This document shows, piece by piece, positions 454-27,056 of a stretch of DNA of 27,589 nt. The notes under the pieces are model-generated. The model was given only the letters and a program-made list of their open reading frames with translations, was not told the origin of the DNA and made no database searches. Source of the DNA: a virus; the IMG/VR virus record IMGVR_UViG_3300022918_000028, positions 1 to 27,589 of that record; one strand, written 5' to 3'. How positions within the stretch are numbered: the stretch's first letter is position 1; each line of letters opens with the position of its first letter. Both the position numbers and the translations under genes were made by a program.

Positions 454-644
454 ATAACGGTCAAAGTCTGGTCAATGAAGCCGCTCCCCTGGTTCATGAG
501 TACAATACGCGCGTTCGTCTTGCTAAGCTCGGCTATCGCAGTGATTTGGGCTCGCTGAGCGCCTTTAAAGCCGAGTGTTTCACACTAATCGACCGCACTC
601 TAGATGCGGAACGGGCGAAAGAGGCAAAGAGTGGCAAGAGATAA
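408..644 (+). CDS. Tail assembly chaperone, -1 frameshift extension (gpT-like part)
   Basis: This frame is exactly -1 relative to the upstream chaperone and is open through the slippery heptamer at 408-414 to TAA at 642-644. Slippage after GGA AAC would add 76 residues (R-L-K-A-A-I-L onward) to 116 zero-frame residues, giving a fusion of about 192 aa. A separate start would have to be TTG 432 with no clear ribosome binding site, so expression by frameshifting is favoured. The extension is rich in Ala/Lys/Arg and probably helical near its end (A-E-R-A-K-E-A-K). It overlaps the tape measure start by 14 nt. Function is inferred from the conserved G/GT arrangement of long-tailed phages. Confidence 0.7.
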   Translation, partial: GKRLKAAILIQTKAAYNGQSLVNEAAPLVHEYNTRVRLAKLGYRSDLGSLSAFKAECFTLIDRTLDAERAKEAKSGKR

Positions 645-3492
645 TACGGTAGAGTTTGACATCGTCGCCAATACCGACCCGGCGGCAAAGTCCATCAAGA
701 ACCTCGAGTCGATAGCTGCATCATCCGTTTCCGCAATCTCAGAGACATTTAGTAAACTGCAGGGTGCGGCAAAATTAGCTCTCAGCTATTTTGCTGGCCG
801 TGCGGTAGTAGGTTTTTTTGAAGACTCGGTAGACGCAGCCATAGAGTCAGAATCGGCAGTCGCTCAACTCACTCAGACGCTAAAAAGTCTTGGCGAGTAC
901 ACACCCGACCTTGTCCAAAACTTTACTGAGTTTGCCACTCAGCTTCAGGCTAACTCGAAGTTCTCTGATGAGGCCGTACTTTCTCAGCTCTCACTTGCAA
1001 AGCAGCTAGGCCGTACTGATGAGCAAGCCAAGCTCTTGGTTCAAACTGCAGCTGATTTAGCGACAGCCAACAATGAAGATCTATCGGTATCATTTGATGC
1101 TCTTGCCAAGACCCTCCAAGGCTCTACTAAGGCCCTAGGTACCAGCGTTGCAGACGTCCGTAAGTTCACCGAGGAGCAAGCCAAGGCAGGCGATGCAATC
1201 CTCTTGGTGAGTGAGAGACTTAAAGGTTCTGCTAAAGCCGCAATCGATACCTATGGCGGAGCAGTCAAGCAAGCAGGCTTTGCCTTTGGAGACTTCCAAG
1301 AGGCTCTTGGCACGATCATCATCAAGAACCCGGCACTGATTGCTACGATTCAGCAAGGGGGTAAAGTATTTGCTGAGTTCACAGGATACCTTGAAGCCAA
1401 CGGCGACAAGATTAACGACTTCATAACTCTGGTTGCTAATCTTACCGCTCAGGCTCTCCCTCCGCTTATCGATTTGACAAAGGTACTTGTTAACGCGTTT
1501 GCCGGCCTTGTTCTGGCAGGCGCTAAGCTCACCGAAGGGTTAGCGGGGCTAGCTGCTGCTTTCTTATCTCTAAACGCTGTAAAAACAGGGGTTGAAGCGC
1601 TAGTAAACGGTGTGACGTCAGCATTTGGGGCGATGCTCCAAGCTGTTGCAGAGGTCTTGTCAGCTTTAGGCGACGTGCCAGGGGCAGCAGCAGCGCTATC
1701 TAAAGTAGGCGTAGACCTTAAGAGCGTAACGAAGAGCATTGAAGATTCAGCCGATGCTCTAAGTAATGCCAAGTTTGATGTCAAAAGCCTAGATAACGTT
1801 CAAAAGTCCTTGCAGCAAACCTCTGACGAAGCCAAGGCCTTCGGTGACGGGGTGCTAGAAGCAAGTGTTGCTACAAACAGAGCGTTTAATGCCGTATCTG
1901 ATAGTGTGTCAAAGGCATCTAAGGTCATCGCTCAAGCAGATAGCGAAGCCTCTAGGGCGTCTATCAAAGCCGCCAATGATGCCACGGTTGCAGGACAAGC
2001 TAGAATTAAGGCCTCCGTTGCTGCATCAAAAGCCGCTCTAGATGCTAATGAAGCTGATAAGAAGGCTGCAGTAGAGCGCAAGAAGATGACCGAGGATGCT
2101 ATCAAGCTCCTTGAAAGCATCACCTACAAATCCTTAGATGAGACACAGAAAGTTGCTGCCGATCGCGACAAGGCTTTAGCAGAGATAAATAAATTCTACG
2201 AAGCTAACGTAATCACTGCAGAGCAAGCAGCCACAGCGCGTACACAAATTGAGAAGACAGCTACTGACAAGTATACAGACCTAAACGAAAAGGCCATCAA
2301 AGAAGTCCAAGAGTTCAAGGCTCAAGCATTTAAAGATGACTTGGACAGTATTGAAGGCATCGACATTGCCCGCGAGAATTCTTTAGAACAGCTAAAGAAA
2401 TTCGAAGACGCTGGAAGAATATCGGTTGAAGAGTCCGAGAAAGCACGCACGGCCATCATCACGAGTGCCGAGAAGAAGACATACGACGCTAGAGTAAAGG
2501 CCAATGAGAAGTATGCGGGCGTAGTTTCTAACTTCGTGACAAATGGCTTGCAAGGCTTGGCCTCAAGTGCGGTGTCTCTTGCTGTCGATACGATAGCGCC
2601 AGGCTTTGGAGCTGCGGCTGGTCAAATATTTGGCCTGTTGACGCAGAATACGGAGCAGTTTTCCCAAACTCTCGATCAATTATTTAGTACTGATTTTATA
2701 GACAACCTCTCAAAGAATCTCGTCACGTTTTTATCTAAATTGCCTGAGCTTATTCAAAATTTAGTGACATATTTCTCCGAGCATTCGGATGAAATCATTG
2801 AGCCACTGATTGAGGCGATCATAGCTAGTAGCCCTAAAATAGGTGCTGCGATGGCTCAAGTCGTCACCGATCCCAAGTTCATCGAAGCTATTGCTCTTGC
2901 TGTGGCAAACGGTGCAGCTAACGGCTTAAAGAATTTGGCTGGTCAAATATCTGAGGCTACCAAAAAGGGATTTAAGGATATAGGCCGAGAGCTGACGGGC
3001 TTATTCGCTGGTATATTCGGAGACGCATTTAGTAGTGATGCTATTTATAACGGTCTTAAAAAAGCCTTCGACAAGATCGCTGAGACATTTAAAGACATCT
3101 TCAAGATAGATCTTCCAGGCAGTGGTGGTGGTGGAGGTGTTTTGGGCAAAGTGGGTGGCGCCCTATCTTCGACCTATAAAGCTGTCACCGGAGGTTTATT
3201 TGCAGATGGTGGAGTTGTTCCGAGTGGATTTCCTAATGATAGTTATCCGGCTCGTCTTACTTCCGGGGAGCTTGTGGTTCCAACTGACCTAGTGACTGGT
3301 CTCTCACGCATGATTGCAAGAGACGCTAGCGGTGGAGGTGACAGCAGTGAGATTAACACCGCACTTCTTACACGCTTAGTGTCGCTGATGGAATCGCCGA
3401 CCTTTGTTACTACGTCTGCCGAAGTGAACGGCCGCGCGTTTGCTGATATCATCCTGGAGCTAAATAGAAATAATGCGAGGCTTACAGCATGA
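631..3492 (+). CDS. Tape measure protein
   Basis: A 953-aa protein whose length sets tail length and which is thought to help DNA passage through the envelope. GTG 631 is preferred over ATG 604 because AAAGAGG sits just upstream and the product begins M-A-R-D-N-T. It has long Ala/Lys/Asp-rich helical stretches (roughly residues 370-640, coiled-coil-like), hydrophobic segments around 270-330 and 640-675, and a Gly-rich linker near 840. The C-terminus carries F-A-D-G-G-V-V-P followed by S-Y-P-A-R-L-T-S-G-E-L-V-V-P, a signature common at tape measure C-termini. It is the longest gene here and directly follows the chaperone frameshift cassette. The next gene overlaps its stop by 4 nt. Confidence 0.93.
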   Translation: MARDNTVEFDIVANTDPAAKSIKNLESIAASSVSAISETFSKLQGAAKLALSYFAGRAVVGFFEDSVDAAIESESAVAQLTQTLKSLGEYTPDLVQNFTEFATQLQANSKFSDEAVLSQLSLAKQLGRTDEQAKLLVQTAADLATANNEDLSVSFDALAKTLQGSTKALGTSVADVRKFTEEQAKAGDAILLVSERLKGSAKAAIDTYGGAVKQAGFAFGDFQEALGTIIIKNPALIATIQQGGKVFAEFTGYLEANGDKINDFITLVANLTAQALPPLIDLTKVLVNAFAGLVLAGAKLTEGLAGLAAAFLSLNAVKTGVEALVNGVTSAFGAMLQAVAEVLSALGDVPGAAAALSKVGVDLKSVTKSIEDSADALSNAKFDVKSLDNVQKSLQQTSDEAKAFGDGVLEASVATNRAFNAVSDSVSKASKVIAQADSEASRASIKAANDATVAGQARIKASVAASKAALDANEADKKAAVERKKMTEDAIKLLESITYKSLDETQKVAADRDKALAEINKFYEANVITAEQAATARTQIEKTATDKYTDLNEKAIKEVQEFKAQAFKDDLDSIEGIDIARENSLEQLKKFEDAGRISVEESEKARTAIITSAEKKTYDARVKANEKYAGVVSNFVTNGLQGLASSAVSLAVDTIAPGFGAAAGQIFGLLTQNTEQFSQTLDQLFSTDFIDNLSKNLVTFLSKLPELIQNLVTYFSEHSDEIIEPLIEAIIASSPKIGAAMAQVVTDPKFIEAIALAVANGAANGLKNLAGQISEATKKGFKDIGRELTGLFAGIFGDAFSSDAIYNGLKKAFDKIAETFKDIFKIDLPGSGGGGGVLGKVGGALSSTYKAVTGGLFADGGVVPSGFPNDSYPARLTSGELVVPTDLVTGLSRMIARDASGGGDSSEINTALLTRLVSLMESPTFVTTSAEVNGRAFADIILELNRNNARLTA

Positions 3493-12357: not shown

Positions 12358-12609
12358 ATGAGTAAATCTAGCGTTTATACAGTTGAAGAGTTCAAAAAGA
12401 ATATAAAGCGCAATATAAAGAAGAAACTAGCTAAGCTCGGATGGACACCCGGCCGCTTCGCTGAAGAGGTAGGCGTGACTAGAGGAATGGTCAGCAAGTG
12501 GCTCAATGGCGAGAGTTGCCCGGGGTTAACTGCCTTGGCGAGAATATGCACCGCAATGGGTGAAGCGCCAGAATACTTTCTAAGTAAGCCGGTTCGAGGC
12601 GCGAAGTGA
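12358..12609 (+). CDS. XRE-family helix-turn-helix regulator (Cro/CI-like)
   Basis: An 83-aa DNA-binding protein. Residues 23-60 match HTH_3: K-L-A-K-L-G-W-T-P-G-R-F-A-E-E-V-G-V-T, then G-M-V-S-K-W-L-N-G-E, with the second helix as recognition helix. It lacks a C-terminal peptidase or dimerisation domain, so it resembles Cro or a short plasmid-type repressor. GAGG lies a few bases before ATG 12358. It probably controls the divergent RecT-like gene and its own early operon through the adjacent palindrome. It is the first gene of a long plus-strand early operon. Confidence 0.88.
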   Translation: MSKSSVYTVEEFKKNIKRNIKKKLAKLGWTPGRFAEEVGVTRGMVSKWLNGESCPGLTALARICTAMGEAPEYFLSKPVRGAK

Positions 12610-13920: not shown

Positions 13921-14160
13921 ATGGAGATCAATGAAAAAAAATTATATCAACTTGTAGTTAACGTCGATAGGGAGGGGGCAGCATATTACAATTTTTTCTA
14001 TGTACCTTATTCTCTTAATAGCCTCAAAAGTTATATAGACAAAGGTTTATATGTCAAGTTTATCAAAGACTATCCAGAAATGGAGAAGGCTGTTGTGGTC
14101 TTTGAGGGGAGAAAGCATCTTTTAGAAGAGGTTAAAAGAAATGGGGAATGGAATGAGTAA
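13921..14160 (+). CDS. Small protein, unknown function
   Basis: A 79-aa product from ATG 13921, or 84 aa from GTG 13906. The ATG is preferred because AAGGTGG lies 11 bases before it and would be inside the longer version. It is Lys/Tyr-rich with beta strands (L-Y-Q-L-V-V-N-V-D) and helical segments. Its end overlaps the next gene by 8 nt. No family recognised. Confidence 0.55.
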   Translation: MEINEKKLYQLVVNVDREGAAYYNFFYVPYSLNSLKSYIDKGLYVKFIKDYPEMEKAVVVFEGRKHLLEEVKRNGEWNE

Positions 14161-14356
14161 AATTAGATTCATCGAAGTGACTAAATATCAGGGCAGAGAA
14201 CCTATATATAAGAGGACTGCGATAAATATAGCTCATATACACTCTGTAGGGGAAATTTTTAACCGGTCCTATATTGGGGTCAGTGATAGAGAGATTCAAG
14301 TGCACGAGTCATTTGAGGAAATCTTGGAGATGATTAAAAAAGCTGAGAATTCGTGA
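14153..14356 (+). CDS. FlbD-like small protein
   Basis: A 67-aa product from ATG 14153 with GGGGA 6 bases upstream (ATG 14141 is also in frame). The pattern I-E-V-T-K-Y...I-N-I-A-H-I-H-S-V followed by I-Q-V-H-E-S-F-E-E-I-L-E-M-I resembles the FlbD-like fold that recurs in phages: a first strand, a conserved I-A-x-I, and a final V-x-E-S-x-x-E-I helix. The resemblance is of overall pattern and does not establish function. It precedes the primase by 1 nt. Confidence 0.55.
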   Translation: MSKIRFIEVTKYQGREPIYKRTAINIAHIHSVGEIFNRSYIGVSDREIQVHESFEEILEMIKKAENS

Positions 14357-14357
14357 A

Positions 14358-15143
14358 ATGTTTAGCTATCACCCGGACCAAGGCGCAATAGGCAAAGCTT
14401 TCTGCTTCGCTCGAGGCTGGCAAGCATACCGAGGCCCCGATCAAAGTCTCTCACGCGCTATCGTAGGTTGGGCTACCTCGCCTTCATTGTACGAGGGAGG
14501 ATATAGGAATAAGTCCTCTTTCATTGGCGCAGATTGGCTAGGATTAGACTTTGACGAAGGGCCTTCTCTCTTAGAGATCTACAATACTTTTTGCGACCAT
14601 ATCCACGTTCTAGGTCCTACTAAATCCCATCAGATCTCAAAAAACGGTGCCCCACCTTGCGATCGTTTTAGGCTATGGCTAAAGCTTCCAGAGACCATTA
14701 CGAATACCCGAGACTATGAGGCTACGTTAAGGCAATACGTGCACCGATACGACGCCGATGCTGCGTGTGTCGATGCCGCAAGGCTATTTTGGCCATGCAA
14801 GGAAATCTATAGTGCGGTTTTTGAGGGGGAAACGGCTGATATTGTGCGTGCACCTGAAAAGGAATACGTGAGCGATTCGCCGGTATTCCGTGGGAAGATA
14901 CCTTATTGGGTGAGGGATTATTTAGACGGCGTCTTTCCACCCGGTCGCCCAGCGCATATGCAGCGCAATTTTTACGTCTATAAAACAGCTGTTTGGCTCA
15001 CTCGTAATGGCTGGCAAGAAGAAGAGATCGTAAATATTATAATGAATAGTAAGCTACAGAACTTACCTGGCCGGGCGGCGATGAAGGTCTTTGATGTGAG
15101 AAAAACTGTAAAGAGTGGAATATTGAAGGCGTCTAAGATTTAG
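14358..15143 (+). CDS. Archaeo-eukaryotic-type primase (AEP) like DNA primase
   Basis: A 261-aa protein with the three AEP motifs in order: I, W-L-G-L-D-F-D-E-G with Asp64 and Asp66; II, T-K-S-H with His91; and III, near D-R-F-R-L-W-L-K-L and Y-D-A-D-A-A-C-V-D-A-A-R-L-F-W-P (about residues 131-146). These coordinate metal and nucleotide. The C-terminal part (W-L-T-R-N-G-W-Q-E-E-E) is a helical primase-associated-like segment. It is followed by a P-loop ATPase, a common primase-helicase pair in phages and mobile elements. ATG 14358 lies 1 nt after the preceding stop. Exact family not determined. Confidence 0.78.
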   Translation: MFSYHPDQGAIGKAFCFARGWQAYRGPDQSLSRAIVGWATSPSLYEGGYRNKSSFIGADWLGLDFDEGPSLLEIYNTFCDHIHVLGPTKSHQISKNGAPPCDRFRLWLKLPETITNTRDYEATLRQYVHRYDADAACVDAARLFWPCKEIYSAVFEGETADIVRAPEKEYVSDSPVFRGKIPYWVRDYLDGVFPPGRPAHMQRNFYVYKTAVWLTRNGWQEEEIVNIIMNSKLQNLPGRAAMKVFDVRKTVKSGILKASKI

Positions 15144-15159
15144 ATGTAGTAAAACAAAA

Positions 15160-15258
15160 TCCCCTGCATCGAGCGGATGAGGGGACTTAGCTTGAATCTA
15201 CCTACTACTAATAGGTAGATCCTCTGTGGCAGTGACGATCCGCAAAGTACCCAAGCTA
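15160..15258 (+). ncRNA. Candidate structured RNA: hairpin plus three-way junction
   Basis: Hairpin A: TCCCCT-G-CATC, loop GAGCG, GATG-AGGGGA (15160-15185), 10 bp with one bulged G. Next a junction: P1 TAGCTTG (15188-15194) with CAAGCTA (15252-15258); P2 ATCTACCT (15196-15203) with AGGTAGAT (15213-15220); P3 TGTGG (15225-15229) with CCGCA (15240-15244), one T-G pair. P1 encloses P2 and P3. All pairs were read by eye; conservation and folding energy are untested. I recognise no known RNA family. Confidence 0.42.
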
Positions 15259-15291
15259 TAGCTATATTGCAATAGTGCACGGGTGAATTTT

Positions 15292-15393
15292 ATGCAACTG
15301 TCCAAAAATAAAGCAGTAAACTTTTATTCACCGCTCAAGGTCGAGCGGAATTTTTATTTTGACACAGACGTCGATTTGGCAGCAATACAGTAG
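15292..15393 (+). CDS. Possible 33-residue ORF in the primase-helicase gap
   Basis: ATG 15292 to TAG 15393 encodes 33 aa beginning M-Q-L-S-K-N-K-A-V-N and ending L-A-A-I-Q. GGGTG lies about 7 bases before the start. The ORF runs through a terminator-like hairpin, which argues against it as a normal gene; it could act as a leader peptide. Weak call. Confidence 0.22.
   Translation: MQLSKNKAVNFYSPLKVERNFYFDTDVDLAAIQ
15331..15360 (+). terminator. Rho-independent terminator
   Basis: CCGCTC (15331-15336) and GAGCGG (15343-15348) form a 6-bp GC-rich stem with loop AAGGTC, followed by AATTTTTATTTT. It would end transcription from the early/primase side. Confidence 0.62.
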
Positions 15394-15399
15394 AATGAA

Positions 15400-15430
15400 A
15401 AAAAGCCTCGGGAGCGAACCGAAGCTTTTT
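15400..15430. terminator. Bidirectional Rho-independent terminator
   Basis: AAAAAGC (15400-15406), a C-A mismatch, TCGG, loop GAGCGAA, CCGA, GCTTTTT (15424-15430). The A-run on one side and T-run on the other make it functional on either strand. Two terminators in tandem isolate the helicase gene from the primase operon. Confidence 0.6.
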
Positions 15431-15465
15431 AAGATCAAACCTAGTAACAATAGGAGTGACCACGT

Positions 15466-17145
15466 ATGAATGATGAGAAGAATTTATCGCATAGTGGAAA
15501 GCCAAGCAAGTCTTTAGACTCTAAAATGAGTCCTGTCCAGAAGAATCTGTCAGAAAAAAAACCAAAAAAGAAACACGCTGGCGAAACGCTTTATTACATC
15601 CCTCTTGGACACTCAGACCAGAATTATTTCTTTTATTCCAAGCGTAGCCGCAATCTTTTGCGGATCAATACTTTTAAGACGCCGGAAATTATCGCCCTTG
15701 CTCCTAGAAGTTATTGGAAAATAAGCAACCCCGGCGAGAAAGCTCAGCAGCTCGATACTTACGGTATCGTCGATAGTTTGGTTCGGTCATCTTTGGCTGC
15801 TGGAGTTTTTGACGTTAACAAGGTCCGCGGCCTTGGCGTATGGCGTGAGGGAGAAAGGCTAGTGATTAACACTGGCACCCATGTCATTGAAGATGGACGC
15901 ATCACTGAATTCTCCGATGTCTGCTCTAACTACTTCTACATGATGACTGGAGCATCACTAGCAATCCCACACCCAAACCCTCTAACTGCTCAAGAAGGGA
16001 AGGGTTTCGTAGATGTTTGTCGGAAGTTCAAATGGCTTAACCCTGAAATCGATGCTCTATTGCTTGCTGGCTGGGTCGCTGTCTCTCGAATCGCTGGAGC
16101 CCTCCCAGTGCGTCCGCATATCTGGATCACCGGAGGTAAGGGGACAGGCAAGTCAACGCTATTAGAGGGCCTTGTGAACCCATGCCTAGGCTATGCTGGG
16201 GCTAAGCATGTCTTTCAGGGTATGACTACAGAGGCCGGTATTAGGCAGACTCTAGGCAATTCTTCGCTGCCTATAGTCTTTGATGAGTTTGAGATCACGG
16301 AAGACAAAGCATCTGCCAAAAGGATAGGTGGGGTTTTGGAGCTGATGAGAAACTCATGGAGTGAAACCTCGGGCAAGATTGTCAAAGGAACCCCAGGTGG
16401 AAGGGCTATGCACTTTCCCCTAAACTTCTCGGCTTGCTTTTCATCGATCAGGGTTAGGATTACCAATGATGCCGACGTCTCACGTATATCTGTCTTAGAG
16501 CTAACCCCACATGGTGGTAATCCGCTGCAGCGTAAAGAGCTCGTAACTGCCATGGGGTCTCTCACCGAGCTTTATGGTGAGCGCATCTTCGCCCGAAGCT
16601 GCTTAAATTACCGAAACCTATTAGCTTCCTATGAAATTCTCTCCCAGCAGATTGCAATACTCTCCTCTCAAAGGAAAGGACAGCAGATAGGTATGCTCCT
16701 TTCTGGCGCTTGGATTATGCAGAATGATCATGTGATCACGGTCAATGAGGCAAAAGCTTGGGCCAGGCTTTTTGTGAAGAATGATGCAGCTGAGCAGCAC
16801 AACCAGAATGATGAGGAGAAGTGTCTCACTAGGTTGCTCACCTGGAGGGTCAACGTTAGCGACAAGATGGAAATGGTCCAGGATGTGATCCTCGGCACGG
16901 GTAGTCAGAATGAGGTTGCTAAAAGGGCATTGAGGTCTTTCGGGATCATTGTTGGACCTAAATCTTTCATAGTGGCTAGCAATCATTTGGAACTTGAGAT
17001 GCTTTATGAGAAATCACCATGGAATGGCTGCTGGAATAATTCCCTGAAACGCTTGCCTGGTGCGGTTATCACTAAGCATCAGACCACTTTCGGTGGTGCT
17101 CTTAAAGCACGTGGGGTAATTATCCCGTTAGCACTCATCTCTTAA
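15466..17145 (+). CDS. Replicative helicase/ATPase (P-loop) partner of the primase
   Basis: A 559-aa protein with AGGAGTGACC before its ATG. Walker A G-G-K-G-T-G-K-S-T is at residues 223-231 and Walker B P-I-V-F-D-E-F-E at 270-277. Before these lies a region (about 40-210) that resembles the DUF927-like domain accompanying phage and plasmid primase-helicases. The N-terminal 37 residues are Lys/Ser-rich and probably disordered. After Walker B, a region with I-R-V-R-I-T-N-D-A-D-V-S-R-I-S-V-L-E-L is expected to contain the arginine finger. It probably unwinds DNA at the adjacent origin-like array and works with the upstream AEP primase. Confidence 0.8.
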   Translation: MNDEKNLSHSGKPSKSLDSKMSPVQKNLSEKKPKKKHAGETLYYIPLGHSDQNYFFYSKRSRNLLRINTFKTPEIIALAPRSYWKISNPGEKAQQLDTYGIVDSLVRSSLAAGVFDVNKVRGLGVWREGERLVINTGTHVIEDGRITEFSDVCSNYFYMMTGASLAIPHPNPLTAQEGKGFVDVCRKFKWLNPEIDALLLAGWVAVSRIAGALPVRPHIWITGGKGTGKSTLLEGLVNPCLGYAGAKHVFQGMTTEAGIRQTLGNSSLPIVFDEFEITEDKASAKRIGGVLELMRNSWSETSGKIVKGTPGGRAMHFPLNFSACFSSIRVRITNDADVSRISVLELTPHGGNPLQRKELVTAMGSLTELYGERIFARSCLNYRNLLASYEILSQQIAILSSQRKGQQIGMLLSGAWIMQNDHVITVNEAKAWARLFVKNDAAEQHNQNDEEKCLTRLLTWRVNVSDKMEMVQDVILGTGSQNEVAKRALRSFGIIVGPKSFIVASNHLELEMLYEKSPWNGCWNNSLKRLPGAVITKHQTTFGGALKARGVIIPLALIS

Positions 17146-17149
17146 AGGA

Positions 17150-17502
17150 CTCCTCAAAAGACTCCTCAGCTGAGCATAGTTTGAGGAGAGCTCTGAGGAG
17201 ACACGCGGCCTTGAGCAGCAAGGGTTTGGGTCAAAACTCCTCAGAATCCTCAGAAAAAAATATATAGACGTATAGGGACACACCGCCACGAAAACGTATA
17301 TATATATATTTCTCTAAAAGTTAATATATTATATATGTAAACAGCTGAACGCCTTGGTATGAAAGGCGGCGGTGTCTCCTCAGAGCTCTCCTCAATTTTT
17401 AAGATCTCTGAGGAGAGCTTAGGAGTTTACCTTGAAATACAAATGGTTGCCTATCCTCAGAGCTCTCCTCAAAACATCAAAAAAAATCCTCAAATTGAGG
17501 AG
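17150..17502. repeat. Iteron-like CTCCTCA array with AT-rich core, origin candidate
   Basis: Ten exact copies of CTCCTCA occur here: six forward (17150, 17162, 17237, 17376, 17388, 17465) and four as TGAGGAG (17182, 17194, 17409, 17496). Near copies lie at 17246, 17419, 17453 and 17486. Many are paired at a 12-nt pitch. CTCCTCAGAGCTCTCCTCA (17376-17394) is the exact reverse complement of 17182-17200, and an 18/19 copy lies at 17453-17471. Between the clusters is an AT-rich core (about 17255-17340, with runs of TA steps). The layout matches replication origins: repeats for an initiator and an easily melted core beside a helicase gene. Only one other exact CTCCTCA was noticed (8810-8816). Confidence 0.65.
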
Positions 17503-17508
17503 AGTATA

Positions 17509-17706
17509 GTGGAATACCGCGGCCCCATCCCTCCAAAGAACTGCATCCGTCCATTTGAGTGCATGGGTAAACTGCGCTGCCAGTTCGACCGCACTTGTAC
17601 CAACCACCCGAAATATGATCCGTTTGAGAGATGGAGACCATCGGCTTGGCTTCGAGATCCCAAGCAGTCTAAAAATGTACTGACACCTAGGGCTGGTGAG
17701 AGATAG
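17509..17706 (+). CDS. Small Cys-rich protein, possible metal binding
   Basis: A 65-aa product is proposed from GTG 17509, because GAGGAG (17497-17502) lies 6 bases upstream. The frame is open back to ATG 17359, but that would translate the repeat array and is less likely; ATG 17443 is another option. The core contains C-I-R-P-F-E-C, K-L-R-C-Q-F-D-R-T-C, four Cys that could bind metal, then a basic, Pro-rich end. No family recognised. Its ribosome binding site is one of the repeat copies, which may link translation to the array. Confidence 0.5.
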   Translation: MEYRGPIPPKNCIRPFECMGKLRCQFDRTCTNHPKYDPFERWRPSAWLRDPKQSKNVLTPRAGER

Positions 17707-17742
17707 AAGGGGGTGCAAATTTATTTTCGGAGAGGGGAACAG

Positions 17743-18537
17743 ATGATGAAGGAACGCGGTAATGGCAGGTTTTATTCTAAAATGGGTGGTCTTGTTCTTG
17801 GGCTTAATCTTATTGGTGGTTGTGGTTTTGAAGTTGTTGATACCGGCTATCGGGGGATTCTTACGAGATATGGCGAAATTCAAGGAGAGCCGCTTGCCGA
17901 AGGGCTCTACTTCTACAACCCGTTCTCGAGCGACATCAAAGAGGTCGACGTTAGAGAACAAAAACTAGAGGGTGATATTAATTGTTTTACTAAAGACACT
18001 CAGCACGTTCTAGTGAGATTTGTTATCACGTATTACCCTGACCCTATAAAGATCCACAAGCTATATAAGCAATTTGGCGCAGAGTGGGCAGAAAAAATCA
18101 TCAAGCCTACCGCACTTGGATCGATAAGAGATACCGTTGGCCAATACATTGCCGATGATATAGTAGGCAAACTAGATCAAGCTAAACATAAAGCAGAATC
18201 TGAGCTCATGGCTAATCTAAAAGGTAGAGATATATTTCTCACCCGGCTAGACTTTGTCGGTGTTGACTTCGACAACGCTTATAAACAAGCTATTGAGGCA
18301 AAGGTTGTTGCTGTTCAAAAGGCCGCAGAGGCAAAGAATAAGACTGTAGAAATTGAAGAGAGAGCCAAGCAGAGCATAATTGCCGCTGAGGCTGAAGCTA
18401 AATCGATGACGATTAGGTCACAAGCTTTACAGCAAAACAAAGGCCTTGTTGAATATGAAGCTGTTCAAAAGTGGGACGGCAAGCTGCCTGTTTACATGCT
18501 GGGAAACGGCGCGCTACCTTTCATCAATATTAAATAG
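17743..18537 (+). CDS. SPFH/prohibitin-like lipoprotein
   Basis: A 264-aa product from ATG 17743 (GAGAGGGG 5 bases upstream; GTG 17713 is an alternative). It begins with a positively charged start, a hydrophobic stretch and I-G-G-C, a lipobox-like site with Cys27. Residues about 30-190 match the SPFH/Band 7 fold: G-Y-R-G-I-L-T-R-Y-G, P-L-A-E-G-L-Y-F-Y-N-P-F, V-D-V-R-E-Q-K-L-E-G, then the typical V-G-V-D-F-D-N-A-Y. A long Ala/Lys/Glu helix follows (about 190-240). SPFH proteins form membrane-associated rings that scaffold proteases and microdomains. It is unusual as phage cargo, and an envelope or superinfection role is only an inference. Confidence 0.8.
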   Translation: MMKERGNGRFYSKMGGLVLGLNLIGGCGFEVVDTGYRGILTRYGEIQGEPLAEGLYFYNPFSSDIKEVDVREQKLEGDINCFTKDTQHVLVRFVITYYPDPIKIHKLYKQFGAEWAEKIIKPTALGSIRDTVGQYIADDIVGKLDQAKHKAESELMANLKGRDIFLTRLDFVGVDFDNAYKQAIEAKVVAVQKAAEAKNKTVEIEERAKQSIIAAEAEAKSMTIRSQALQQNKGLVEYEAVQKWDGKLPVYMLGNGALPFINIK

Positions 18538-22103: not shown

Positions 22104-24233
22104 ATGTTAAAACGAGCGGCTCAGTATCTTTTATTATCCACTCTATGCCCCATCCCAATAGCTTTTGCCTCTGCACCTCAACCCCTTTGGACCTCTCAGC
22201 CTGTAGCACCCGGGGAATCTGTTGTGGTCGCTTTAGCGCAAACAAGCGACAAGTCCAAGGTTGAACTTTCTCAATTACCTAATGATTCTTGCGGCGGCCC
22301 TTTAAGTGGTATGCAATGCGCTGACTGGAAAACCCCGGCAGTGGCGCTCATTAATGGCGTAGAATCTGAATTTCAAGTTCCTGCCGATTGGCCTGTGGGT
22401 ATGTATTCATACAGAATACAAGAAGGCACTACATGGAGTGATCCAGCTTTCATTAACAAGGCAGAAGTCTGGTTTATCCAAGGTGACAAGGGTAAGACCG
22501 CAACGCCAGGCGGCTGGTTGCAAGTCCATGGCAAAGCACTCTCACTGCCTGGGAAGCAATATCCTTGGATAGCACTTGTCTCCAATAATAAGATTGTGGC
22601 AAAGGTACCAGCCTCTGGGGGTAAGCTTAGCAATACTTACCGTCAACGTTTTACGCTTCCTGACAACTTGCCTGAGGGTTCCTATAAGGTTTACGTTAGC
22701 AACGGATATGGAGGTGCACAGGGATGGACTTTGTATTCCAACCAAGGTTCCTTCGGTGAGCAGATTGAAACGATCAATATTGCAAAGTACACTGAGCCTA
22801 CAAAAGAAATCTTGGTGAAGGATCAAGAAGGAAACAACTGGGACGAAAAGATGGCGGCGGCTCTAAAGCAAGCTGCATCTCAAGGCGGCGCGATTGTCAC
22901 ACTGCCTGAAGGGTATCTCTACTTTAATCAACAGATCAGAATGCCAGAGAACAGCGTCTTGAGAGGTGCAGGACAAGAAAAGACCTACGCTATTTTTGCC
23001 CAAATGCCACCGGATGGCTGTAACTCGGTTATGGGAACTATGCTTTGTGGGCAGCCTCTACCGGGTGACAAGCAAGCAGCGCTTCGTGTATCTGACCTAA
23101 CCCTTTATTCGGGCCAAGACATAGGCACTTGTGCTTTCTTCGGACGTACTGACATTCCTGGATATATGCGTAGAGTCAATTGTGTGTTCCCAAATCAATC
23201 TGGAGGGGACGCAAAAAACTACTGGAAGACCTTTTCTGCTCACCCGTTGGTATCTGCTGTCCTCTTAAAATACGTTAACAACGTTGAGATTAGCGACTCG
23301 TCCCTAGATTGTCGCGGTGGCGTGCAGTTTGTTAGCCAAGCCGCTAACACTAGTAGCGGCTACCTACGTATGGAGCGCAATAAAGTTCGTTATCGCGATA
23401 ACGATTACCGCACTTGGGGCGGAAATGAAAATGTGATTTATGAGAACAATACAATCATCTACGCAGGCAACTGGGGGGACAACGGATATACCGCCGCAAT
23501 GAACGCCAACCCTGGCCTATGGTTCTCAGCTTACGCCTCTAACACGCGTGACTTGTATTTTGGGAACAATGTAAACATTCAAGAAGATCGCACGGTCGCA
23601 ATGAATGGCTCACAAGGAATCACGGTTGACGGCAACTACAACGCATACAAGGGAGGGATCAGCGTTAATGGTGACACCATTACTCTTGCTTCGGTCCCTA
23701 ACGAAGGAGGCAATTTAAGCGGCGGTTCTTTTGTTGCTATTATAGACGGACTTGGCAAAGGTCAATGGCGTACAACTACCGACCGATTTAACGGCAAGCC
23801 TAGCGTCAAGATCAATGCTCCTTTTACAATTTCACCTGACCAGACGTCGGTAGCTGTTGTATCGAGGTTTATTGGTCGAGGCTTGTTTGTTTATAACGAC
23901 TTTGCGGCTCGTCCTTACTTCGGAATTTACTACCCATCGGTCGACATTGTGTTTGCTTACAATACGAATTTAGGTGGAAACATGGCGGGGCAAAATCGCG
24001 GTGGTAGTTCCACGCATTGGGGAGACACAAAAGGATTAGCTTGGAACGTTGAGATAACAGGCAACCAAATAACTTCGAAGAACTGGGCATTTACAAACTA
24101 CATAAGCTTGCCAAATCAACAGATCTACGGACAGGTATATAGGAACAACTATTCCCCGGTTGGTATTACCTATGCTCTGCGTCCTGCTAATGGCGTGGCA
24201 AGTATCTCTGAGGGTAACAAGGGTGGTAATTAA
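22104..24233 (+). CDS. Secreted right-handed beta-helix (pectin-lyase-like) protein
   Basis: A 709-aa protein with AAAGG about 7 bases before its ATG. It starts with a clear Sec signal (M-L-K-R-A-A-Q-Y-L-L-L then A-F-A-S-A, cleavage around residue 22). Residues about 25-215 look like two beta-sandwich domains (W-F-I-Q-G-D-K-G-K-T-A-T-P-G-G-W-L-Q-V-H-G-K-A is IPT-like). From about 240 on a parallel beta-helix begins: A-L-K-Q-A-A-S-Q-G-G-A-I-V-T-L-P-E-G-Y-L-Y-F, then V-L-R-G-A-G, D-C-R-G-G-V-Q-F, E-N-N-T-I-I-Y. This is the architecture of exported polysaccharide-binding or -degrading proteins. A signal peptide is unusual for a virion protein, so a host-expressed exported product is more likely than a tailspike. 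Confidence 0.78.
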   Translation: MLKRAAQYLLLSTLCPIPIAFASAPQPLWTSQPVAPGESVVVALAQTSDKSKVELSQLPNDSCGGPLSGMQCADWKTPAVALINGVESEFQVPADWPVGMYSYRIQEGTTWSDPAFINKAEVWFIQGDKGKTATPGGWLQVHGKALSLPGKQYPWIALVSNNKIVAKVPASGGKLSNTYRQRFTLPDNLPEGSYKVYVSNGYGGAQGWTLYSNQGSFGEQIETINIAKYTEPTKEILVKDQEGNNWDEKMAAALKQAASQGGAIVTLPEGYLYFNQQIRMPENSVLRGAGQEKTYAIFAQMPPDGCNSVMGTMLCGQPLPGDKQAALRVSDLTLYSGQDIGTCAFFGRTDIPGYMRRVNCVFPNQSGGDAKNYWKTFSAHPLVSAVLLKYVNNVEISDSSLDCRGGVQFVSQAANTSSGYLRMERNKVRYRDNDYRTWGGNENVIYENNTIIYAGNWGDNGYTAAMNANPGLWFSAYASNTRDLYFGNNVNIQEDRTVAMNGSQGITVDGNYNAYKGGISVNGDTITLASVPNEGGNLSGGSFVAIIDGLGKGQWRTTTDRFNGKPSVKINAPFTISPDQTSVAVVSRFIGRGLFVYNDFAARPYFGIYYPSVDIVFAYNTNLGGNMAGQNRGGSSTHWGDTKGLAWNVEITGNQITSKNWAFTNYISLPNQQIYGQVYRNNYSPVGITYALRPANGVASISEGNKGGN

Positions 24234-25329: not shown

Positions 25330-25698
25330 ATGGAATCAGGAGAAACTAAAGCGCCTGGTAAATCTGCCAAGCCCAAGTCTCGGGCAAAGCTTGACCCTGA
25401 AATTCTAGCTATTAGAAATTCGTCATACGAAGAGTTTATGGGTATTTGTCACAAGTACGGCTTGAGTACGCGCCGAGATTTGGACAAAGAGCTTAAGCGC
25501 ACCGACATAACCATGTTCGAGCTCATATGTCGGAGCATGGTCAAGCGCGCCGCTGAGGGTGACAAGGACGCTAGGAAAGAGTTACTTGATCGTCTCTGGG
25601 GCAAGGTGAGAGATAGACAAGTCGAGACGGGCGCTAGCGAAGGCTTTGCATTGGCTTATGATCCATTCCTTAAAGCCAAGGCCGAGGTCAAGGTTTGA
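25330..25698 (+). CDS. Small terminase subunit (probable)
   Basis: A 122-aa protein with AAGGG before its ATG. Basic, Lys/Pro-rich N-terminus, then helical segments (Y-E-E-F-M-G-I-C-H-K-Y-G, M-F-E-L-I-C-R-S-M-V-K-R-A-A-E-G-D-K-D-A-R-K-E-L-L-D-R-L-W-G-K), the pattern of small subunits with an N-terminal DNA-binding part and a central oligomer helix pair. It overlaps the large terminase start by 4 nt. Called mainly from position and pattern. Confidence 0.75.
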   Translation: MESGETKAPGKSAKPKSRAKLDPEILAIRNSSYEEFMGICHKYGLSTRRDLDKELKRTDITMFELICRSMVKRAAEGDKDARKELLDRLWGKVRDRQVETGASEGFALAYDPFLKAKAEVKV

Positions 25699-27056
25699 AT
25701 GTCACCACGCCTACGATAGAAACCTTTGATCCTACGATCATTCCCTACCAGGCGCAGGTGATCAGGGACATCTACCAGAGCTATGATTACTCTCTGGGTG
25801 CTCATGAGGTGCTGCTCTCGGGCTCTGTGGGCTCTGCTAAATCGATTCTCATGGCTCACATAGCCATCAGGCACTGTCTTGAAACGCCAGGCGCTCGCGT
25901 GCTCGTTGGTCGAAAGGCTATGCCTGACCTCAAATCGACGATCTTCCTAAAGATACTTGAGCATTTAGACGGTAGGTTCTTAAAGCAGGATAGGGACTAC
26001 TGGGTTAACTCGACGATTGCTAGCATTGTGTTTAGGAACGGCTCAGAGATCATCTCTCGGTCGTGGTCGGACAAGAGATATAAGAAGCCTCGCTCCTTGG
26101 AACTAAGCATGGCGATCATCGAGGAGCTCACCGAGAACAACGAGGAGGACAAGGAGGTTTATCTTGAGATCTTTATGCGTCTACAGCGTTTACCGCACGT
26201 CCCGCATCAGGTGATCATCTCTGCTACGAACCCGGATAGTCCTAGTCATTGGGCTTATAATCATTTTATCGCCAGCGCTTCACCAACTCGTCATGTTTAT
26301 TATAGCTCGACTGAAGACAACCCATTTCTACCTAAGCAGTACATCGCTCAGCTTAAGCGTGATCTAGACCCTAAGCTTGCGTTGCGTATGATTTACGGTC
26401 AGTGGGTCGAAATACAAGGCGAGGTTATTTACTATCAGTACAGCCATGAAGAGCAATTTATAAATGCCTCTTATGAGATAGACCCCAAATGGCCTATTCT
26501 ATTAAGCTGGGACTTCAACATAGGAGAGGGCAAGCCTATGTCTCTTGTCTTCTGCCAGTACGATCAGGTCAATGATATCTTTCACGTCTTCAATGAGGTT
26601 GTGATACATGGAGCTCGTACAGCTGACACCATTGAAGAGGCCGATAACCGCGGCTTGCTCAAGGCCAATTGGAACTATGGCGTGTGCGGTGATGCAACAG
26701 GTTCTAGTCGAAATACCCGCTCCGTCCAAAGTGATTACGACATTATCCGCAAAGAGCTATCCAACCGAAGCCTTGCATTCAAATACATGGTCCCGTCGAG
26801 TAATCCTCCCGTTCGGCAAAGGCATAACATAATGAATGCATACTGCTTGAATATGCAAAAGCGCCGTCGGATCTTTGTCTACAAAGACGCTCCCACGGCT
26901 GATAAAGGCTTGAGGCTCTCAAAGCTTAAAAAGGGTTCAGGGTATATTGAGGATGATACGCCCGCGTATCAGCATATAACTACTGCTATTGGTTATGCGG
27001 TTATGTTTACCTATAATAGCATGAACAGAAGACAACAAAGCACGACGAGGCTATAA
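25695..27056 (+). CDS. terL: Large terminase subunit
   Basis: A 453-aa DNA packaging motor. It starts at TTG 25695 within the preceding stop (TTGA overlap). Walker A G-S-V-G-S-A-K-S is at residues 43-50, Walker B M-A-I-I-E-E at 139-144 with the catalytic Glu, and a coupling-motif-like I-I-S-A-T-N-P near 175. The nuclease domain begins L-L-S-W-D-F-N-I-G (about 271) and contains V-C-G-D-A-T-G (about 335), the acidic residues that cut DNA. It packages DNA through the portal encoded next. Confidence 0.93.
   Translation: MNVTTPTIETFDPTIIPYQAQVIRDIYQSYDYSLGAHEVLLSGSVGSAKSILMAHIAIRHCLETPGARVLVGRKAMPDLKSTIFLKILEHLDGRFLKQDRDYWVNSTIASIVFRNGSEIISRSWSDKRYKKPRSLELSMAIIEELTENNEEDKEVYLEIFMRLQRLPHVPHQVIISATNPDSPSHWAYNHFIASASPTRHVYYSSTEDNPFLPKQYIAQLKRDLDPKLALRMIYGQWVEIQGEVIYYQYSHEEQFINASYEIDPKWPILLSWDFNIGEGKPMSLVFCQYDQVNDIFHVFNEVVIHGARTADTIEEADNRGLLKANWNYGVCGDATGSSRNTRSVQSDYDIIRKELSNRSLAFKYMVPSSNPPVRQRHNIMNAYCLNMQKRRRIFVYKDAPTADKGLRLSKLKKGSGYIEDDTPAYQHITTAIGYAVMFTYNSMNRRQQSTTRL

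Follow-up and report, generated by a model that had tools for sequence, protein, structure and literature searches.

A candidate replication origin of the P4/PICI kind behind the gene of its predicted initiator helicase in a tailed phage

The virus fragment IMGVR_UViG_3300022918_000028 from IMG/VR (27,589 nucleotides, analysed at its full length and called the window here) carries genes for a tape measure protein (604-3492) and a terminase large subunit (25695-27056) and was therefore assigned to a tailed phage. Within this 27.6-kb fragment a dense array of short repeats (iterons) is located at positions 17150-17502, directly behind a helicase gene. The array is very probably a replication origin forming one module with the preceding genes for a primase (14358-15143) and an initiator helicase (15466-17145), in which the C-terminal domain of the helicase would read the iterons and two hexamers would be loaded around a central core. 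The assignment of the array as an origin is well supported, and the best reading of the locus is a primase-helicase-origin module of the type found in phage P4 and in phage-inducible chromosomal islands (PICIs), with a helicase that is predicted to serve as its own initiator by binding through its C-terminal domain. Outright membership in the P4/PICI group is not claimed, because the phage is not a satellite and its helicase lies outside the P4/D5 sequence family; the module is regarded as a variant of the P4/PICI kind.

The motif CTCCTCA/TGAGGAG is present in the 353 bp of the array in ten exact copies (17150, 17162, 17182(-), 17194(-), 17237, 17376, 17388, 17409(-), 17465 and 17496(-)) and in five copies with one mismatch (17212(-), 17246, 17419(-), 17453 and 17486), one near copy more than had been counted in a preliminary description of this DNA. 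In 2,000 dinucleotide shuffles of the region, exact copies numbered 0.10 on average and 3 at maximum, copies with up to one mismatch 1.6 on average and 6 at maximum, and in shuffled windows any 7-mer reached at most 4 copies per 353-nt stretch. The whole window holds 13 copies of CTCCTCA (whole-window dinucleotide shuffles: mean 3.5, maximum 8), and the three outside the array, in the remaining 27 kb, correspond to about the chance level; the array itself was confirmed. The inverted repeat first described as a 19-mer is present and extends over 24 exactly matching nucleotides (17181-17204 with 17372-17395, both given on the plus strand); the other copy, first described as 18/19 at 17453-17471, forms at 17454-17473 an exact inverted repeat of 20 nt with 17180-17199. 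Two further statements of the earlier description hold: the two groups of sites are separated by an AT-rich segment (approximately 17241-17340, 73% A+T, one of the 100-nt stretches with the highest A+T content in the window), and the array begins right after the helicase gene, whose stop codon ends at 17145. A nucleotide search with the region against known phages gave no match, and an exact 18-mer was not found in IMG/VR, so that the repeat itself is lineage-specific. A function at the RNA level was rejected, since the region had no Rfam match and, the sites being on both strands, their helical phasing also speaks against it. Mimicry of Shine-Dalgarno sequences was likewise discarded as an explanation of the array, as only the last copy (TGAGGAG, 17496-17502) is placed to serve a start codon; this copy is a plausible Shine-Dalgarno sequence for GTG 17510 of a small unassigned gene ending at 17706.

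The sites are arranged in two groups around the core. The left half-origin (17150-17252) comprises the six iterons 17150+, 17162+, 17182-, 17194-, 17237+ and 17246+ with spacings of 9, 43, 12, 20 and 12 nt from the core outward; the near copy at 17212(-) was left out of the half-origins as a probable chance match. The core itself (17253-17340, up to 77% A+T per 60 nt) is a candidate DNA unwinding element. On its inner right side lies an extra direct pair of iterons on the plus strand (17376 and 17388; 17376-17394), followed by the right half-origin (17409-17502) with the six iterons 17409-, 17419-, 17453+, 17465+, 17486+ and 17496- and spacings of 10, 34, 12, 21 and 10 nt from the core outward, the split of the right side into half-origin and extra sites being our own assignment by analogy to the family.

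The helicase gene (15466-17145, plus strand) encodes a protein of 559 amino acids that belongs to PHROG 35358 (E 3.6e-104), a family annotated as 'DNA primase', and that has no fused primase. Searches of Pfam, NCBIfam and PDB sequences with it gave no real match. Its AlphaFold (AF2) model (predicted local distance difference test, pLDDT, 89.6) had its best full-length structure match in Cch of the staphylococcal cassette chromosome SCCmec (5dgk, Z 15.7, 418 residues, spanning 43-559), yet at only about 11% sequence identity; the primase-helicase of the Staphylococcus aureus pathogenicity island SaPI5 was among the other matches. According to the model, the protein would have the architecture of a self-loading initiator helicase, composed of an N-terminal domain, an AAA+ core and a C-terminal winged-helix domain, and Walker A and the other nucleotide-binding residues are conserved across the family. 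The C-terminal domain (residues 447-559; 16804-17142, plus strand) is the predicted winged-helix-like reader of the iterons. Folded alone (AF2 pLDDT 92.5), it had its best match (VIA), a weak one, in SaPIbov1 Rep, again in the C-terminal domain (8tch 442-553, Z 4.9, 94/120 aligned).

The product of the upstream gene (14358-15143, plus strand, 261 amino acids) is a small primase resembling archaeo-eukaryotic primase (AEP)/RepB primases and PriCT proteins, with matches to PHROG 2135 DNA primase (E 9e-4) and weakly to RepB_primase, and with a relative annotated as PriCT-1 in MW202458. In relatives, the PHROG 35358 region forms the helicase half, at the C-terminus, of a TOPRIM primase-helicase. 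Close relatives have the TOPRIM primase fused to the helicase, while in the window the fused part is gone and a separate AEP/RepB-like primase gene lies upstream, an arrangement that looks like a primase replacement. The two genes are separated by a gap of 322 nt (15144-15465) without a clear gene.

Searches of viral and genome contigs with single helicase sequences found nothing; a query built from an alignment succeeded and yielded 289 loci in which the end of the helicase was complete. Of these, 274 had at least 300 nt past the stop codon, and they were grouped into 141 clusters at 80% identity and inspected over the 450 nt past the stop. There, one 7-mer occurred six times or more in 41 of the 141 clusters, compared to 14 of the 2,260 other windows taken from these loci (Fisher p about 2e-41). 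Several of the latter 14 seem to be iterons of this kind that inserted genes have shifted out of place. The array exceeded all 200 shuffles in 55/141 clusters, and among the close relatives with usable flank (loci L018-L028 and L030) it was found in all 12. Thus, the proposal that the array is an initiator-binding array with an AT-rich unwinding element is supported by arrays found next to the orthologous helicases of dozens of lineages, in which the geometry is conserved and the repeats differ. Other repeats form far denser arrays at a greater distance from the helicase stop, at about 1.2 kb in L045 (GCTGCAA, 19-21 copies) and at about 0.7 kb in L024 (CCGATGC, 11-15 copies). The complete, cultured Bdellovibrio phage phi1422 (NC_019525, L312) has 11 copies of GGTAACA past its helicase stop; between gp23 and gp24, at approximately 14000-14320, it carries an unannotated, mirror-perfect, predicted origin of 12 iterons (TGTTACC).

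With sites called by lineage-specific matrices, a common layout became apparent: next to a core of about 90 bp stands a pair of sites spaced by 8-10 nt, and beyond it, across a long spacer, follows a cluster of some four sites, the two sides being roughly mirrored. The number of sites per side had its mode at 6 (43/102 sides; mean 5.5, variance 2.35), the gap between the two groups was more AT-rich than the locus in 49/51 arrays, and the innermost sites of the two sides were on opposite strands in 43/48 arrays. The long spacers fall at 32, 43, 53 and 64 nt, which are whole helical turns (89/116 in those classes), and the order of pair, phased spacer and cluster was found in 39 of 77 halves, compared to a mean of 6.9 and a maximum of 14 with shuffled spacings. 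In phi1422 the mirror is perfect (9,10,15,63,8 / core 90 / 8,63,15,10,9).

Phage P4 played no part in deriving this geometry, and its half-origin is like that of the window. The annotated type 1 repeats of P4 ori have spacings of 10, 11, 22, 43 and 10 nt with strands ---+--, which equals the pattern +++-++ of phi1422 and others; written from the pair, 10,43,22,11,10 in P4 stands beside 9,43,12,20,12 and 10,34,12,21,10 in the window; in both, a pair of sites spaced by about 9-10 nt is followed, after a spacer of about 43 nt, by some four clustered sites. The P4 iterons (GGTGAACA/TGTTCACC) are short like those of the window, and an iteron region right behind the helicase gene is common to both, P4 crr lying directly 3' of the alpha gene with spacings of 9, 43, 18 and 14 nt. 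P4 differs in that ori is a single half-origin far from alpha, crr consists of two tandem repeats and no two half-origins surround one core; moreover, its primase is fused to the helicase and P4 is a satellite. The window helicase had no match to the P4/D5 family (TIGR01613), and hhalign against alpha gave a probability of 5%; folds across the wider helicase group are similar.

The gene order primase (14358-15143), helicase (15466-17145) and origin (17150-17502) is the pri-rep-ori order of PICIs and SaPIs. The pri-rep-ori segment of EcCICFT073 replicates a plasmid autonomously (PMC6092414). Its iterons TGTCTACC, with spacings of 9, 46, 22, 11, 9 and then 11, 22, 46, 9, fit the same theme as the repeats of the helicase family, and its layout is the mirror of the same half-origin, reversed, with the pair outermost there and innermost in the window. 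PICIs are satellites, whereas the window represents a tailed phage with its own virion genes, among them the tape measure (604-3492) and terminase large subunit (25695-27056) genes. In SaPI Rep the C-terminal domain acts on iterons directly downstream of its own gene, the direct repeats bound by Cch2 lie just behind the gene of that protein, and in both proteins the DNA-binding end is the C-terminal domain (PMC7581432). SCCmec is another kind of element and has few repeats downstream of cch2.

The repeat differs by lineage, and most repeats fit the theme YGTTACC (family average). Since relatives keep layout and spacing while the letters of the repeat differ, the comparison suggests that each helicase reads the repeats of its own lineage. 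The distance between motifs correlated with the distance between C-terminal domains when the other domains were controlled for (partial Mantel r 0.169, p 0.019); in the same test the N-terminal domain gave p 0.071, and the AAA+ core and the helical part were not significant. The earlier suggestion that the helicase itself recognises the repeats is therefore supported, while the N-terminal region that had been proposed as reader gives way to the C-terminal domain as the likelier candidate, being the sole part that tracks the motif at p<0.05 and, in SaPI Rep and Cch2, the end that binds DNA. An association of single helicase positions with the motif gave scattered positions and no clear recognition surface.

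In the proposed mechanism, the C-terminal domain would bind the TGAGGAG iterons, and each group of about six sites would take up one helicase hexamer, so that two hexamers would flank the AT-rich core, facing in opposite directions. The two hexamers would melt the core and then separate as replicative helicases, and the small primase would lay the first primers.

Several observations weigh against this interpretation. The expected switch in GC skew is absent, the cumulative skew climbing steadily through the region, which is a weak test given a 27.6-kb fragment with mostly co-oriented genes. TGAGGAG is among the more divergent repeats and departs from the YGTTACC theme, the right side carries an extra pair compared to the family layout, and the 46-nt spacer of EcCICFT073 narrowly fails the spacing rule. 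No array above shuffles was found within 450 nt in 86/141 clusters, about 10 of which have an array farther off, and in Acinetobacter phage Acjo_20 (L013) nine copies of TGTAACA (1557-1907) lie upstream of the primase-helicase gene and not downstream. The effect size of the Mantel test is modest, and the C-terminal domain resembles SaPIbov1 Rep weakly (Z 4.9, Foldseek E 3.9), Foldseek with this domain alone giving no significant match. Outside the nucleotide-binding region no sequence relation of the window helicase to P4 alpha was detectable. Finally, spacing classes and thresholds were set on the tested data, so that the p values are descriptive, and P4 served solely as an outside check.

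Other functions of the array were considered against the same evidence. It is improbable that the origin is read by a different protein, be it a host factor resembling DnaA or a small phage protein lacking annotation, and that the helicase is just loaded at the site. Classical iteron plasmids and lambda-type origins share with the window iterons beside an AT-rich unwinding element, the initiator in these systems is not the helicase, and the iterons of lambda sit inside the O gene; in addition, several small genes of the window are unassigned. However, the repeat sequence tracks the C-terminal domain of the helicase, the repeats vary between lineages, unlike host DnaA boxes, and the helicase resembles the self-loading proteins Cch and SaPI Rep.

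Very unlikely, too, is an operator array at which a repressor or activator controls the genes past the helicase. Repeated sites can be bound by regulators, a Cro/C1-like helix-turn-helix protein is encoded in the window (12358-12609) and the downstream genes are on the same strand, but the arrays trail the helicase gene across lineages whose downstream genes differ, no sigma-70-like promoter was found in 17050-17800, and the layouts, with twelve sites around an AT-rich core, are like the origins of P4 and PICIs. Autoregulation by the same protein may occur. Hardly any weight is given to a partition, packaging or recombination site (centromere, pac/cos or arm-type sites): such sites use repeated binding motifs as well, but the scanned proteins included no recognisable partition protein or integrase (some small open reading frames being outside the scan), the terminase gene (25695-27056) is 8 kb away, and the association of the arrays is with the helicase gene.

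The reading of the array as an origin bound by its own helicase provides a predicted origin and a predicted initiator for a helicase family whose sole annotation is 'DNA primase' and which includes the cultured phage phi1422, whose record has no origin annotated. A 2018 survey reported this origin layout in PICIs and in 'no other known bacterial replicon' (PMC6092414). Here the PICI-type layout recurs in tailed phages; open-access literature was covered, and earlier phage reports are possible. The chances are about even that a geometric code is shared by the origins of self-loading initiator helicases of tailed phages, P4 and PICIs, in which six iterons per hexamer, arranged as a pair, a whole-turn spacer and a cluster of four, would occur twice, as mirror images, around the melting core, and in which iteron letters and reading domain would diverge together and give rise to many mutually exclusive origin identities. 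A spacing that is conserved while the letters change leads to testable predictions on the loading of two helicase hexamers, and the matched pairs of repeat and domain lend themselves to deciphering the recognition code.

Two neighbouring genes were recorded in addition. Directly past the origin region, 17713-18537 encodes a phage-borne SPFH/band-7 membrane protein (Pfam Band_7 E 1.8e-25). Between small genes and the gene of a single-stranded DNA-binding protein (SSB), 22104-24233 encodes a protein of 709 amino acids that has no Pfam match and seems to carry a signal sequence.
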